From positions 186,001 through 250,000 of the forward strand of contig NZ_WNXQ01000001.1 of NCBI RefSeq assembly GCF_009789075.1: 64,000 bases of DNA. The letters run 5' to 3'. Below, piece by piece: positions 50,682 through 56,050 of this stretch; position 1 is the first letter of the stretch, and each line of letters starts with the position of its first letter. A program made the position numbers and the translations under genes. A model generated the notes under the pieces. It was not told the DNA's origin and ran no database searches. It was given only the letters and a program-made list of their open reading frames with translations. The DNA comes from Pseudooceanicola pacificus. GTDB lineage: Bacteria > Pseudomonadota > Alphaproteobacteria > Rhodobacterales > Rhodobacteraceae.

Positions 50682-50696
50682 TTAACAATCGGTTAG
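50682..50696. promoter_or_regulatory. CtrA-like binding site in the fliF/fliL promoter region
   Basis: TTAA-N7-TTAG (TTAACAATCGGTTAG) matches the CtrA consensus TTAA-N7-TTAA with one change, in a GC-rich genome where such AT words are rare. A further TTAG at 50707-50710 sits in a direct repeat ATCGGTTAG. It lies 58 nt before the fliF GTG and 46 nt before the fliL ATG, so it could control both units. CtrA is the usual flagellar activator in Rhodobacteraceae. Confidence 0.6.
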
Positions 50697-50741: not shown

Positions 50742-51230
50742 ATGTCTGAAACAGAAGATGCCCAGGGCGAGGCGAAACCGAAGCGGTCGAAACTGCCGCT
50801 GATCCTCGGGCTTGTGCTGGCGCTCGCTGGCGGTGGCGGCGGATTTTTCGCTGTCTATTCCGGCCTTGTGCTGGCCCCGGACCCTGCGGGCGCCGGGGAG
50901 ACGCCGATGCCGCAGCCCGGCCCGGTGCCGGACATCGCCTATGTCGCGCTGGAGCCGATGGTGATCAACATGGGCCGGGCCTCTGGCGGGCGGCACCTGC
51001 GGTTCCGCGCGCAGATCGAGGTCAACCGCAGCCAGAAAGAGGCGGTCGAGACGCTCGTGCCCCGGATCATGGACGTGCTGAACACTTATCTTCGCGCCGT
51101 CGATCTCGACGTGCTGGAGGAACGGTCGTCGCTGATGAAACTGCGCACCCAGATGCTGCGACGGATCGATGTCGTCGTCGGCCCGGGCCGCGTCCGTGAT
51201 CTGTTGATCATGGAATTCGTAATGAGCTGA
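50742..51230 (+). CDS. fliL: Flagellar basal body-associated protein FliL
   Basis: The 162-residue protein has a short charged N-terminus, one membrane helix (about 18-40) with Gly-rich end, a linker and a periplasmic FliL domain (YVALEPMVINMG, LRFRAQIEV, LVPRIMDVLNTYLRAVDLDVLE, RIDVVVGPGRVRDLLIMEFVMS). FliL rings the stator and modulates motor torque. GAGG lies 7 nt before the ATG. First gene of the rightward unit. Confidence 0.93.
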   Translation: MSETEDAQGEAKPKRSKLPLILGLVLALAGGGGGFFAVYSGLVLAPDPAGAGETPMPQPGPVPDIAYVALEPMVINMGRASGGRHLRFRAQIEVNRSQKEAVETLVPRIMDVLNTYLRAVDLDVLEERSSLMKLRTQMLRRIDVVVGPGRVRDLLIMEFVMS

Positions 51231-51244
51231 AGGACTTGATCGAC

Positions 51245-51601
51245 ATGATTGCCGATATACTGCTCGCTGCCGGTGCCTTTGGCGCCGGGCTGTACTGCTT
51301 TGTCCTGGCGCGCCGCCTGAACCGGTTCAACAACCTGCAGGGTGGCATCGGCGGTGCGGTGGCAACCCTGTCGAGCCAGGTCGACGAACTCTCGCGCACG
51401 CTCTCCACGGCCCAGGCCAGTGCGGGCAGCACAACCGATTCGCTTGGGGACATCACCGAACGGGCGGAAAACGTCGCGCGGCGGCTGGAGTTGCTGGTCG
51501 CGTCGATGCACGACCTGCCGGCGCAGGTGCCGGAGACGCAGGCCAATGGCAGCAGTCAGGCCGTCTTCTCGCGCCGCACCACCAACGGGTCGAGGGGGTG
51601 A
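51245..51601 (+). CDS. Small membrane protein with coiled coil in the flagellar operon
   Basis: The 118-residue protein has one N-terminal helix (ADILLAAGAFGAGLYCFVLA) followed by a basic pair and a heptad-rich helix (LQGGIGGAVATLSSQVDELSRTLSTAQ ... ERAENVARRLELLVASM). It has no family I recognise. Its constant place between fliL and the MotE-like gene suggests a role near the motor. The ATG at 51245 is preceded by GAAGGA at 10 nt; a TTG at 51236 is another option. Confidence 0.75.
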   Translation: MIADILLAAGAFGAGLYCFVLARRLNRFNNLQGGIGGAVATLSSQVDELSRTLSTAQASAGSTTDSLGDITERAENVARRLELLVASMHDLPAQVPETQANGSSQAVFSRRTTNGSRG

Positions 51602-51603
51602 GG

Positions 51604-52224
51604 ATGTTCGCAGGCCGTCGCAATGACCGGCCCGGCGGCAGGCCGAAACGTCTTCGCGGGACGCTCAACATCGTGGCCCTTCTGTTCGTTGGCTCTGCAT
51701 TGCTGCGCCTGCTGGGAGAGGCCGGCGCCGTACTGGCCGCCCAGGATGGCATCATGCCCGTGGCGCCGGCCAGCGACGAGGTGTGCCATTCGGACGAGGC
51801 CACCAACCGGTTGGTTGCCGCGATCCAGAAAAGGACAGCCGAACTGGACGCGCGCGAAAAGGCCATCGCAGAACGGCAGGTCTTCCTGTCCGAGGCAGAT
51901 CAGCAGATCGAGGCCAAGCTGGCCGAGCTGGAGGCCGCAGAGGCCTCTCTGCGCAAGGTCCTGTCCGTCGCCCAGGACGGGGCGGAACAGGATATCGCAC
52001 GCCTGACTGCCGTCTATGCCAGCATGAAACCCAAGAGCGCAGCCGCGCTGTTCCAGGAGATGGAGCCGAACTTCGCCGCCGGTTTCTTGACCCGCATGCC
52101 GCCCGAGTCCGCCGCCGAAATCCTGTCGCTGCTGGACCCTGGGACGGCCCATGCGATCAGCGTCGTCATCGCCGGACGGAACGCGGATTTTCGCGGCGGG
52201 ACTGGATCCGACACCGGAAATTAA
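51604..52224 (+). CDS. MotE-like protein with MgtE N-terminal type domain
   Basis: The 206-residue protein has one membrane helix (about 20-48), a long charged coiled coil (LVAAIQKRTAELDAREKAIAERQVFLSEADQQIEAKLAELEAAEASLRKV), and a C-terminal MgtE-intracellular-like helical domain (VYASMKPKSAAALFQEMEPNFAAGFLTRMPPESAAEILSLLDP). In Sinorhizobium MotE is a periplasmic stability factor for MotC; this protein shares layout and context rather than proven function. It overlaps the upstream stop closely. Start ATG at 51604; GTG at 51598 possible. Confidence 0.75.
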   Translation: MFAGRRNDRPGGRPKRLRGTLNIVALLFVGSALLRLLGEAGAVLAAQDGIMPVAPASDEVCHSDEATNRLVAAIQKRTAELDAREKAIAERQVFLSEADQQIEAKLAELEAAEASLRKVLSVAQDGAEQDIARLTAVYASMKPKSAAALFQEMEPNFAAGFLTRMPPESAAEILSLLDPGTAHAISVVIAGRNADFRGGTGSDTGN

Positions 52225-52269: not shown

Positions 52270-53139
52270 ATGATCGGAATAGTCGGTATCGGCATCATCT
52301 TCGTCATGGTGTTCGGCGGGTATATCCTCGCCGGCGGCAAACTTGGCATCATCCTGAAATCGCTGCCGTTCGAACTGATGATGATCGGCGGGGCGGCCGT
52401 CGGGGCCTTCCTGATCTCGAACGACATGAGCAGCGTGAAGCACACGCTGAAGGATGTCGGCAAGGTCTTCAAGGGCCCGAAATGGAAGCCCGAGGATTAC
52501 AAGGATCTGTTGTGCCTGCTCTTCGAACTCATCCGGCTGGTGCGCCAGAACCCGGTTGCGATCGAAGAACATATCGAAGCGCCGGCAGAGAGTTCGATTT
52601 TCAGCAAATACCCCAAGATCCTGTCCGAAGGAGAGGCCATCGGCATGATCTGCGACACCATGCGGTCGGCCTCGATGAACTATGACGACCCGCACCAGGT
52701 CGAGGAGGTCCTCGACAAACGGGCCGAGGCCAATCTGCACCACGCCCTGCACTCAAGCCACGCGCTGCAGACCATGGCCGACGGTCTGCCGGCCCTCGGG
52801 ATCGTCGCGGCGGTGCTGGGCGTGATCAAGACCATGGGCTCGATTGACCAACCCCCTGAAATTCTTGGCAAAATGATCGGCGGGGCGTTGGTCGGCACCT
52901 TCCTCGGCGTTTTCCTGGCCTATGGCCTGGTCGGTCCGTTTGCCGCCAAGGTCAAGGCTGTGGTGGAAGAGGATCGGCATTTCTACAATCTCATCCGCGA
53001 AGTGCTGATCGCGAACCTGCACAATCACTCCACCAACATCTGCATCGAGGTGGGGCGGCAGAATACGCCGCAGCAATGCCGCCCCACCTTTGCCGACCTG
53101 GAAGATGCGCTGAAGGCGACGAAACAGGAGGCCGCGTGA
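52270..53139 (+). CDS. motA: Flagellar stator protein MotA
   Basis: The 289-residue inner-membrane protein has four helices, with GGAAVGAFLISND, the cytoplasmic loop, then LPALGIVAAVLGVIKTMGS and GGALVGTFLGVFLAYGLVGPFA, which are the TM3/TM4 proton-channel segments of MotA. It couples ion flow to rotation with MotB. No motB gene follows; instead a 700-residue exported protein starts at an overlapping GTG. GGAGG lies 7 nt before the ATG. Confidence 0.95.
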   Translation: MIGIVGIGIIFVMVFGGYILAGGKLGIILKSLPFELMMIGGAAVGAFLISNDMSSVKHTLKDVGKVFKGPKWKPEDYKDLLCLLFELIRLVRQNPVAIEEHIEAPAESSIFSKYPKILSEGEAIGMICDTMRSASMNYDDPHQVEEVLDKRAEANLHHALHSSHALQTMADGLPALGIVAAVLGVIKTMGSIDQPPEILGKMIGGALVGTFLGVFLAYGLVGPFAAKVKAVVEEDRHFYNLIREVLIANLHNHSTNICIEVGRQNTPQQCRPTFADLEDALKATKQEAA

Positions 53140-55238
53140 AACCTGTCGCCCTGACACTGGTATGGCTTCTGGCCCTGTTCGGCCCGCAAGCCGCGATGTC
53201 CGCGCCAATCGAGGTCCGCACCGGGGACCACGACGGCTTTACCCGCGTCGTGTTCTATCTGCTCAAAGGCGAGCGGTTGCGCGTGACTGCCAATTCCGGA
53301 CGTATCCTCGTCAGGAGGACCGAAGCCGGGGGCTTCGACACATCGGGGATATTCGACAGGATCACACGGGCCAGGGTGTCCTCTGCCACGGCTTCGGACA
53401 GGTCGATGGAACTCAGGCTGGCCTGCGATTGTGCCATCCTGCGAGAGTTCGATCAGGGCGGGGTCAAGGTGATCGACATCGGCCAGGGGTCAACTGGTCA
53501 GAAAGCCGCCAACCAGTTGAGTTTCGGCACTGCGGTGGCCAGCGACAGCCCCGACGCGTCGCGCCATCTGATGGGCCTAGAGCGCAGTGCACGTTCACTG
53601 ACCTTCCCGGACCGCAGCGACCCCACGCAGGTTGCGGGCGAAACGGTGCGGGATCCCATGCCTCACCGCCCTGGCGACGGTGACATCGAGTCCCCCGCAG
53701 CTACCCCGATATCGCATAACAAGTTGCTGGATGAGCTTCGCTCGGACCTGATGGCCCGGCTGACCGACGCCACGAACCGCGGGCTTCTTGTTCCGGAATC
53801 GTTGCCCAACGACCGGCATGCAGGCGAAAGCGGGATTTCGGCGACACCCCTGGATCGAGCCATCCTCCCGCAGCCTGAACACAGCACCGAAACAGACGAG
53901 GCTGCGGCGCGCTGCGGGGATCCGGTTCACAACCCGCTCCTGCACTTCGATAGCGATGTGAATTTCCGGGACGTTCTTGCCGAAAAGAGGTCCGAGGTAA
54001 CGGATGACCTCGAAGATTCCGATACCTCGCGGAAGGCGCTCGCACGAGTCTACGCAAATTTCGGTTTCGGGATCGAGGCAATCTCGGTTCTGGATACGCT
54101 GCGGCATCCGGATCGCGAGGCAGCGGCGTTGAGGCAGCTGGCGGCCATTGTCGACGGCGAACCGATGACAGGAAACGAGGAATTGCTGAAGTCCCTGGCC
54201 TGCGATCCTTCGTTTGGTGTCTGGTCGGCAATCGCCGGGAACGGGATCGCAACCTTGGACGAGGGAACATTCAGCGACTTGATGTCAGGCCTCGCGATCC
54301 TTGCGAGACCGCTCCGCAATGCCCTGTACGAAAGGCTCCGCGCCGAACTGCTTGCCTCAGGCAAGACGGACCGCCTCGCCCAATTGTCCCGAATGATGGA
54401 ACAGAGGGCCGCAGGTTCAGATCAGACTGTGACCTCCCCGGCAAGGGATGCGCATGCGCCATCGCCAGGCGTCCCGCAACATATGGCGTCTACAAGTGAA
54501 CCGGGGCCACTGGCAGCCGACATAGAAGGCGAGTTGCAAAGCGGGGCAAACCCCGACCTCCAGAAAATCGAGTTGCTGGACAGCTATGCCCTGCAAGAAC
54601 GCGGAACCGAAGAGGCATCCAGGCTGACATACCTGGCAATGCTGGCCAGGGCACGGCGTGGAGATCTCAGGCAAGTGATCGAAGACTTGCCCAAGGCAAT
54701 GGAGTTCTACGACTCCTTTGGCTCGGCCGATGTCATTTCACCCATTGTCGCCGCCGCGTTGGAGACCGCCGAAGCGGGGCAGTCGCTATGGTTCATATCC
54801 GCGCTCCAGACAATCTTTGCAGACAACCCGGACGCGGAGATCTCGGCCCTCCTGAACAGGGAAGCCGCACAACTGGGGATGCCCGGTCTTACGGCCGCCT
54901 CAGGTGGTCACGCTCAGGAACAAGCCACGGATCGACTTGCCGGCCTGCCTCTGAAAACGACGCAGCACGAGACAGGCTCCATTCCGCCCAGCCTGGACAA
55001 TGTGGCGAGTGATCAGCCGAATTCGGATACGGCCAGAATGCCGACACGTGTTTCCGAACCACAACCTGTCGGCGAGGGCACCCGAGCACCTTCACGCGCC
55101 GAGGGACCAGGTCGCGTCTCGACAACGGTCGCAACCGGGCTGGAATTGGCGGACACGTCGCTTGGACTTCGCGAGGGCATCGCGAACCGACTTCGATCAC
55201 GGGTGCCAGACCCACCACAGGCTGCCCCCCGCCCATGA
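53136..55238 (+). CDS. Large exported protein coupled to motA, possible MotC analogue
   Basis: The 700-residue protein has a Sec signal (cleavage after SA, residue 23), an N-terminal beta-rich domain (about 24-115, EVRTGDHDGFTRVVFYLLKGERLRV, CDCAILREF) resembling an AMIN-type fold, a long low-complexity hydrophilic linker, and helical TPR-like repeats about 300-560 (YANFGFGIEAISVLDTL, ELLKSLACD), then a proline/serine-rich tail. I do not recognise a family. It starts at a GTG overlapping the motA stop (GTGA) with AGGAGG 4 nt before, so it is coupled to the stator. GC is lower than in neighbouring genes, and codon use is looser. Confidence 0.8.
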   Translation: MKPVALTLVWLLALFGPQAAMSAPIEVRTGDHDGFTRVVFYLLKGERLRVTANSGRILVRRTEAGGFDTSGIFDRITRARVSSATASDRSMELRLACDCAILREFDQGGVKVIDIGQGSTGQKAANQLSFGTAVASDSPDASRHLMGLERSARSLTFPDRSDPTQVAGETVRDPMPHRPGDGDIESPAATPISHNKLLDELRSDLMARLTDATNRGLLVPESLPNDRHAGESGISATPLDRAILPQPEHSTETDEAAARCGDPVHNPLLHFDSDVNFRDVLAEKRSEVTDDLEDSDTSRKALARVYANFGFGIEAISVLDTLRHPDREAAALRQLAAIVDGEPMTGNEELLKSLACDPSFGVWSAIAGNGIATLDEGTFSDLMSGLAILARPLRNALYERLRAELLASGKTDRLAQLSRMMEQRAAGSDQTVTSPARDAHAPSPGVPQHMASTSEPGPLAADIEGELQSGANPDLQKIELLDSYALQERGTEEASRLTYLAMLARARRGDLRQVIEDLPKAMEFYDSFGSADVISPIVAAALETAEAGQSLWFISALQTIFADNPDAEISALLNREAAQLGMPGLTAASGGHAQEQATDRLAGLPLKTTQHETGSIPPSLDNVASDQPNSDTARMPTRVSEPQPVGEGTRAPSRAEGPGRVSTTVATGLELADTSLGLREGIANRLRSRVPDPPQAAPRP

Positions 55239-56050
55239 ATATATCATTGCATATCCGCGAACAATTTCCAGGTTTCGCCATGGCGCATCGCAGCCGCACC
55301 GGGCCAATCGCCGGGCGACTGTGTGGAATCTCACCCGGCCGAATCGTCCTGACCATGTCTCTGGTCTGGGCACTTGCCCTATGCGCAGAACAAGCTGACG
55401 CAGCGGTCATGGCCTCGGCAGAATGCGACAGGGCAGCCAGCATCGCGGCACATGAGACCGGCGTTCCGGCCAAGCTGATGCAGGCCCTGACGAGGCAGGA
55501 AACCGGGCGCAACGTGGATGGCGAATTGCGCGGCTGGCCATGGGCACTGAATGTCGGTGGCAAAGGCCAGTGGTTTGCGACGTCTCGCGACCTCGAACGC
55601 TCCATCGCGGCACAGCAGGCGTCCGGCGTCACCAACATGGACATCGGCTGCTTCCAGATCAATTTCCGCTGGCACCGGGATAATTTCGCCTCGTTGCAGG
55701 ACATGATCGACCCACTCGAAAATGCAAGATATGCCGCCCGGTTCCTGCGGGACTTGCACGGGGAAACCGGCGACTGGACCGAAAGTGTCGGCCTGTTCCA
55801 TTCGCGAAACACGCAGTTCTCCAAGCCATATCTCAGGCGATTTGCACGCATCTACGCCTCACTGGATGACGCCGCATCTCCCCCGACACCGGGCAAATCC
55901 AGGCGTAGCGTTGCCCGCCAGCCAACCGGCGCCAGGGATTGGCCATCAGTTTCAGACGCAGGTATCGGCTCGGTTCTCCTGTCGCGCAGCGGCGGCAGTG
56001 CGATGGATTCAACCGGCACATCCAGCGCAGGCATCCGGTATTCAAGATGA
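55235..56050 (+). CDS. Lytic transglycosylase (SLT domain) of the flagellar operon
   Basis: The protein has an N-terminal signal or anchor (IVLTMSLVWALALCAEQADA) and an SLT domain with the catalytic Glu in TRQETGR (Glu89 counting from 55235), ALNVGGKG and NMDIGCFQINFRWH (the GxxQIN motif), then SVGLFHSR. It should open peptidoglycan for the rod and ring, a job done by FlgJ in enterobacteria. The ATG at 55235 overlaps the preceding stop (ATGA) but has a weak ribosome-binding site; ATGs at 55277 and 55355 are alternatives. The C-terminal 60 residues are disordered. Confidence 0.88.
   Translation: MNISLHIREQFPGFAMAHRSRTGPIAGRLCGISPGRIVLTMSLVWALALCAEQADAAVMASAECDRAASIAAHETGVPAKLMQALTRQETGRNVDGELRGWPWALNVGGKGQWFATSRDLERSIAAQQASGVTNMDIGCFQINFRWHRDNFASLQDMIDPLENARYAARFLRDLHGETGDWTESVGLFHSRNTQFSKPYLRRFARIYASLDDAASPPTPGKSRRSVARQPTGARDWPSVSDAGIGSVLLSRSGGSAMDSTGTSSAGIRYSR

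Follow-up and report, generated by a model that had tools for sequence, protein, structure and literature searches.

In a 64,000-nucleotide (nt) stretch of the Pseudooceanicola pacificus genome (contig NZ_WNXQ01000001.1, positions 186,001 to 250,000; hereafter the window), the flagellar gene motA runs directly into a gene for a 700-residue, exported-looking protein, and the locus raises the question of what this protein does for the motor. The initial annotation, made from the letters alone, suggested that it might correspond, in roseobacters, to the MotC/MotE module of rhizobia, in which two proteins work together on the stator. We report that the gene at 53136-55238 is, judging by similarity and gene order, very probably an ortholog of MotK, and through this orthology the suggested counterpart is supported as a role. 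All window coordinates refer to the forward strand, and statements on published systems rest on excerpts of the papers cited.

The gene downstream of motA is very probably a MotK ortholog

The frame at 53136-55238 is intact, with 700 codons and a GTG start that shares 4 nt with the motA stop, as had been read initially, and a Shine-Dalgarno-like AGGAGG (53126-53131) lies within the motA 3' end and is separated from the GTG by 4 nt. The N terminus (residues 1-22, 53136-53201) resembles a signal peptide in both sequence and model, in line with a putative export. The gene order in the window, fliL-pflI-motE-motA-motK, is that of the Cereibacter sphaeroides fla2 operon (PMC10954123, 2024), in which MotK (RSWS8N_12065, UniProt Q3IY86) is encoded by the fifth gene of fliL2-pflI-motE-motA2-motK. 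The C. sphaeroides protein is exported and periplasmic, and its AMIN-like N terminus, disordered linker and TPR-like helices are shared with the window protein, which is 700 residues long compared with 652. According to the same report, MotK is essential for rotation of the Fla2 flagellum and binds MotE and MotB2, motK mutants build flagella and do not swim, polar localisation of MotK requires MotA2/MotB2, and MotE stability requires MotK.

To place the window protein relative to this system by similarity, we used BLASTP and a profile (A1) of 19 proteins, the window protein and 18 others, which was made before any Cereibacter locus was fetched. BLASTP aligned the window protein with Cereibacter johrii MotK at an expect value (E) of 1e-10 over 530 columns, and profile A1 matched C. 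johrii MotK with an E of 1.3e-111. A further genome (G096) encodes a 652-residue MotK that is 91% identical to C. johrii MotK and a 185-residue MotE with a Cys at position 20 after a 29-residue signal (counted by hand); these figures agree with the C. sphaeroides numbers in PMC10954123. That paper had already named low-similarity MotK homologues in Roseobacteraceae, one of them in Dinoroseobacter. Because MotK was published in 2024, the window protein is ordinary in kind: it is a clean, very divergent member of a kind already known.

MotK keeps its place behind motA across the family

We then searched the window's own family, Rhodobacteraceae in the GTDB sense, for further copies. A search with the single sequence gave matches in 22 of 60 relatives, a count that takes in the genome of the window itself, and each of the 22 loci has a motA match immediately ahead of the MotK match position. 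In one of these genomes (G021; L013/L029), the MotK similarity after motA is split over two frames, possibly by a frameshift or an assembly error, and no single long MotK frame is readable. Profile A1 matched 162 of 248 family genomes (by genus, 161 of 247), and MotA1 matched 172 of the same 248; taking both tables together, 160 genomes have both, 2 have MotK only and 12 have MotA only. As the initial annotation had predicted for a profile search, orthologues lie next to motA: 150 MotK places were listed, 137 of them with a listed MotA, and in 132 of the 137 MotK lies 3' of motA and is read in the same direction, the two matches being at most 929 nt apart (median 27.5). In the other five, the genes are on different contigs (four genomes) or at opposite ends of one contig (one genome). 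No orthologue away from motility genes was found among the 137 listed genomes.

In eight of the 12 MotA-only genomes, MotA is just 50-55% identical and the 3.8 kb fetched gave no MotE match, so that these genomes probably carry another flagellar system. In a ninth (G158) the locus is at a contig end. At the MotK place of a tenth (G025) stands an 810-residue protein that the profile does match (E 5.6e-46), and that of another (G270) is occupied by a 608-residue, signal-bearing protein which the profile missed (E 0.03-0.11) and which has the same four-cysteine pattern as MotK. On plasmid pMaD5 of Marinovum algicola, short hypothetical genes adjoin a MotA of 53.8% identity, with no MotK beside it.

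A named set of motA loci, the best 80 of the matches listed from a scan with a Cereibacter-like MotA, gave a similar picture. A profile-positive open reading frame (ORF) lies directly downstream of motA in 77 of the 80, and 69 of these 77 ORFs begin with a 4-nt overlap with the motA stop; in the remaining three loci, no ORF of more than 300 codons is readable, the sequence running on for 202-764 nt beyond the motA match. A tblastn search of plasmid records with the window protein returned nothing at E 1e-5, a result of divergence and not of absence, since the profile finds MotK on plasmid pD4M1D of Paroceanicella profunda (L217:5816-8467; 883 residues, annotated 'hypothetical protein') with an E of 3e-119 and a 4-nt overlap with motA.

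The predicted fold resembles a flagellar scaffold protein

A model was computed from a 57-sequence alignment of the window protein and proteins from the named loci, and reached a mean predicted local distance difference test score (pLDDT) of 74 and a predicted template modelling score of 0.40. It consists of a signal-like helix (residues 2-20), eight strands at residues 25-117, a low-confidence linker, helices at 194-214 and 277-601, and a C-terminal helix at 665-688 (55128-55199). The strands form an AMIN-fold domain (residues 23-118, 53202-53489; pLDDT blocks of 91-96 at residues 21-120). The linker (residues 119-193, 53490-53714) is mostly of low confidence, with pLDDT below 50 at 123-138 and 140-192, and the helices at 277-601 (53964-54938) form a TPR-like arm with a low-confidence loop at 430-452, so that the TPR-like helices of the initial annotation are present in the predicted model. 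The AMIN-like N-terminal domain proposed there is likewise upheld by the model: although Pfam AMIN scores 13.9 bits, far under its cut-off of 27, residues 23-118 match a type IV pilus chain (3jc8_Qa; Z 11.6, 93 residues, 2.2 Å), AmiC (4bin; Z 11.2, 95 residues, 2.4 Å) and PilQ (4av2, Z 10.1; 4aqz, Z 9.9).

When the whole model was compared with 350,542 PDB chains using Foldseek, the best match, and the sole one at E ≤1e-3, was 9hmf_K (E 9.2e-5, 658 columns), a chain of the Campylobacter jejuni flagellar periplasmic scaffold that we infer from its length of 773 residues to be PflA. PflA, a motor spoke (scaffold entry 9HMF), is described as an AMIN-like β-sandwich, a linker and a TPR superhelix (PMC12222027, PMC11870540), and this architecture is shared with the modelled window MotK. 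PflA also works with the E-ring protein FlgY, which is of the MotE kind, and the window motK has motE nearby; its other reported partner is PflB. The names FlgY, PflB and FlcB do not appear among the matches listed, which carries no weight. A sequence search of solved structures returned only helical-repeat and other unrelated proteins, the best being coatomer epsilon (E 2.7e-5).

MotK diverges fast and keeps its cysteines

The initial annotation had suggested fast evolution, and the identities agree with this: median identity to the window protein is 19% for MotK (56 of the 77 named proteins aligned; aligned columns), compared with 43% for MotE (35 named relatives; aligned columns) and 78% for MotA (n=80; measured differently, as tblastn identity). 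By region of MotK, the median is 29% for the AMIN domain, 18% for the helical arm and 17% for the linker. The lower GC (guanine plus cytosine) content noted with it holds only in part. At 62.3%, motK is under the window average of 67.2%, and its GC at third codon positions (GC3) is 69.2%, compared with 78.9-83.6% for the genes of FliL, PflI, MotE, MotA, FlhA and FlhB; however, motA (59.5%) and the next gene (60.9%, GC3 67.6%) are lower in GC still.

Against this divergence, C260 (53913-53915) and C356 (54201-54203) are found in 57 of 57 aligned proteins, and C97 and C99, which form a CxC motif (53424-53432), each in 52 of 57, the CxC pair being lost in five. The pattern CxC ... C-(about 96)-C is complete in 71 of the 77 named MotK frames, the other six being without both CxC cysteines, and it is present in C. 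johrii MotK. The cysteines may form disulphides, with C260 and C356 as a candidate pair.

MotB, MotE and the neighbouring genes

The window motA (52270-53139, 289 residues) scores 361.9 bits with the MotA1 profile (TIGR03818), above the cut-off of 303.8. The initial statement that motB is absent is correct for the window, in which there is no MotB plug match, but not for the genome: a 289-residue MotB (plug 69.4 bits; OmpA 25.1 bits, under the cut-off of 27.2) is encoded on the motA contig, some 75 kb further upstream (G000:C1:162185-163054), where it adjoins flgE-, flgK-, flgL- and flgI-like genes named from their translations and is followed by the flgE-like gene, not by motK. The assembly is rated 67% complete, and absences elsewhere in the genome would therefore mean little.

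The MotE-like gene reported just upstream of motA is indeed present (51598-52224, 208 residues), and its product scores 29.5 bits with MgtE_N (cut-off 25.9) and matches the FlbB model under the cut-off (E 2.5e-7). Its own model has a long helix (66-142) and a small helical domain, and found no PDB match at E ≤1e-3; the best were a FliF-YlxF model chain (E 2.1e-3), then C-ring chains, which by our own reading are FliG, and MgtE. The fold search therefore supports an MgtE_N-like domain and little more. Model and profile match together fit the E-ring family, whose members have been described with such a domain (PMC13023049, 2026 review).

Further upstream are a pflI-like gene (DUF6468; 51236-51601; 27.2 bits, cut-off 26.9), named from the gene order shared with PMC10954123, and fliL (50742-51230; PF03748, 51.7 bits). 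A candidate CtrA site, TTAA-N7-TTAG at 50682-50696 upstream of fliL, is at chance level: the scan gave 2 matches with 0.73 expected, and because at least 2 were reached in 14 of 100 shuffles, we make no claim of CtrA control. Downstream of motK lie a lytic-transglycosylase-like gene (55235-56050; SLT_3 21.9 bits, under the cut-off of 27), whose ATG shares 4 nt with the motK stop, and then flhA, named from translation and position.

Long AMIN-TPR proteins elsewhere in the class

To look beyond the family, a profile of the 57 aligned MotK proteins was run on 240 alphaproteobacterial genomes at a threshold of E 1e-3. It matched 73, two of them in the window's family and 71 outside it; several weak matches, short N-terminal ones in frames of about 350-480 codons that are amidase-like by length only, are not counted as MotK. 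Twenty of the 71 outside loci, mostly the strongest, were fetched as stretches of 12-15 kb, and the other 51, which are weaker, were placed by position only. Flagellar proteins encoded in the window or elsewhere in its genome, some of them named by our own reading, gave matches in each of the 20 stretches, and none holds a MotA match at E 1e-3. A long frame was recovered in 19 of the 20 (not in L192). Two separate matches to the N-terminal region of the profile occur in 13 of these 19 frames, and the motif R-x-G-x-H-x-x-[FY]-x-R stands in the first 90 residues of 10; the long members may often have two AMIN-like copies. A profile of 14 long proteins aligned with the MotK profile at an hhalign probability of 99.8% (E 5.2e-29, 443 columns of the helical arm), values that TPR arms may inflate. 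With the window's whole genome as target and E-values up to 10 allowed, the long-form profile found motK and nothing else, matching it in its AMIN region (E 5.3e-9).

Many of the long frames directly follow two genes that are MotB-like by their membrane segments; this is the case in 15 of the 19 loci (L184, L185, L187-L189, L191, L193, L195-L198 and L200-L203) and not in the other four, and the two genes often overlap by 1-4 nt. The ion-binding Asp is invariant in 10 aligned proteins of one type (B-type) and absent from the membrane segment of 10 of the other (A-type). With the Pfam models, the Asp-bearing proteins passed the MotB_plug cut-off in 8 of 8 cases and that of OmpA in 6 of 8, whereas two of seven Asp-less proteins passed the plug cut-off, four were under it and one had no match. 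A B-type profile gave strong matches (E 1.1e-31 or better) in 51 of the 240 genomes and weaker OmpA-type matches in many more. Of the 51, 36 have a listed MotK-like match and 15 have none; in 35 of the 36, the MotK-like gene lies directly downstream of the Asp-bearing gene on the same strand within 2.6 kb, and in one it is on another contig. Conversely, 35 of the 71 outside-family matches are in genomes without a strong B-type match. A search of the open-access literature found no description of this gene pair.

Discussion

Similarity and gene order that point to orthology, the 4-nt overlap, the predicted fold class and the conserved cysteines are established here for the window protein, and by analogy with C. 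sphaeroides its role in P. pacificus would be the same. Taken as a whole, we give a probability of roughly 83% to the window protein being MotK, which would act as a spoke linking E-ring, cell wall and stator and in this way recruit or activate MotA/MotB. Several observations weigh against this. Identity to Cereibacter MotK is just ∼20-24% (∼20-24% for the window protein and C. johrii MotK, 24% in the BLASTP alignment), the functional data all come from another organism, C. sphaeroides, and part of the C-terminal helical region of most aligned relatives is missing in the window protein. Small heat-shock proteins (4zj9, Z 9.5) are also among the matches of the AMIN-like sandwich, and TPR matches by themselves are common. 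The alignment with 9hmf_K has global TM-scores of 0.16/0.15 and a root-mean-square deviation of 38, so that it supports a shared architecture and not a tight superposition, and the name PflA for this chain rests on its length. Binding of the AMIN domain to the wall is a prediction; the N-terminal part of C. jejuni PflA is reported to wrap PflB (PMC12222027). Finally, in the last of the 12 MotA-only genomes (G068; L214), fliL-pflI-motE-motA is intact, and just a 235-residue frame stands between motA and flhA; MotK seems to have been lost or heavily shortened in this otherwise intact operon.

The gene could alternatively be the ortholog of rhizobial MotC, moved next to motA. Like MotK, Sinorhizobium meliloti MotC is an exported motility protein that works with MotE, and a recent review regards the two as homologs despite great divergence, on structural grounds (PMC13023049); a remote relation through structure may exist. 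However, the window gene is not beside motB, the review describes MotC as having no AMIN domain, and hhalign gave a probability of 1.7% and the profiles E-values of 0.66-7 with one S. meliloti MotC sequence (434 residues, L216:5424-6728, annotated 'chemotaxis protein' and assigned as MotC by its position after motB). We therefore consider orthology with MotC unlikely and read the proposed counterpart as one of role only, not of shown descent. A decaying MotK that has lost its function would fit a protein that is the shortest of the 19 in alignment A1, with its missing C-terminal helices and lower GC3, but the frame and the motA overlap are intact, all four signature cysteines are kept, the domains are modelled with high confidence, and the working C. 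sphaeroides MotK, at 652 residues (PMC10954123), is shorter still; decay is thus very improbable.

The AMIN-like domain and the overlapping SLT-like neighbour, with SLT detectable in 60 of the 80 named loci (cut-off loci counted among the 80), could point instead to a factor for cell-wall assembly and not for the stator, which would open peptidoglycan for the rod or P-ring together with the lytic transglycosylase encoded next to it. This is hardly to be expected of a gene whose constant neighbour is motA, whose product resembles a flagellar scaffold chain in fold and whose C. sphaeroides mutants are flagellated and non-swimming (PMC10954123). That MotK stands in for MotB and itself anchors the stator in the wall, as its direct coupling to motA and the lack of a MotB plug match within the window might suggest, is in practice refuted by the MotB gene elsewhere in the same genome; the window protein itself has no plug match, and the sole N-terminal helix of its model is the signal-like one. 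We regard such a replacement as next to impossible.

For MotK as a motor spoke, we propose that the protein would be exported by the Sec route and lose its signal. Peptidoglycan, or else a nearby scaffold protein, would serve as the docking site of the AMIN domain, with the flexible linker supplying reach. The partners of the TPR-like arm would be MotE, which is likely to build the E-ring that surrounds the MS-ring, and the portion of MotB exposed in the periplasm. The spoke could then recruit or activate the MotA/MotB stator, and coupled translation with motA would match the supply of MotK to that of the stator; wall binding, spoke geometry and coupling are what we infer. A comparable arrangement is described for Caulobacter crescentus, in which the exported TPR protein FssB/CC_2058 is encoded beside motE and is needed for motility (PMC7885107, PMC10954123); this protein, compared here by description only, is stated to have no BLAST similarity to MotK in PMC10954123.

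More tentatively, and with the odds against it, MotK may be the short branch, within the window's family, of a class-wide alphaproteobacterial motor-scaffold family, judging by the profiles, whose other members are ∼1000-1300 residues long, with the MotB-like genes encoding an asymmetric pair held by the arm. The Asp-bearing and Asp-less proteins could in that case form an asymmetric stator-like or stator-scaffold unit.

Overall, the results place the MotK/MotE motor module in a roseobacter and indicate a family that has drifted far while its gene address stayed fixed, with a median identity of 19% compared with 78% for MotA. PflA has been called not conserved at the sequence level (PMC11870540, 2025 preprint); the profile link to the long AMIN-TPR proteins offers a sequence handle on such a scaffold that goes beyond this statement and beyond the BLAST result for FssB. 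This class-wide link and the MotB-like pair are parts worth following, and the pair provides a concrete target for the question of unequal B subunits in stator units.

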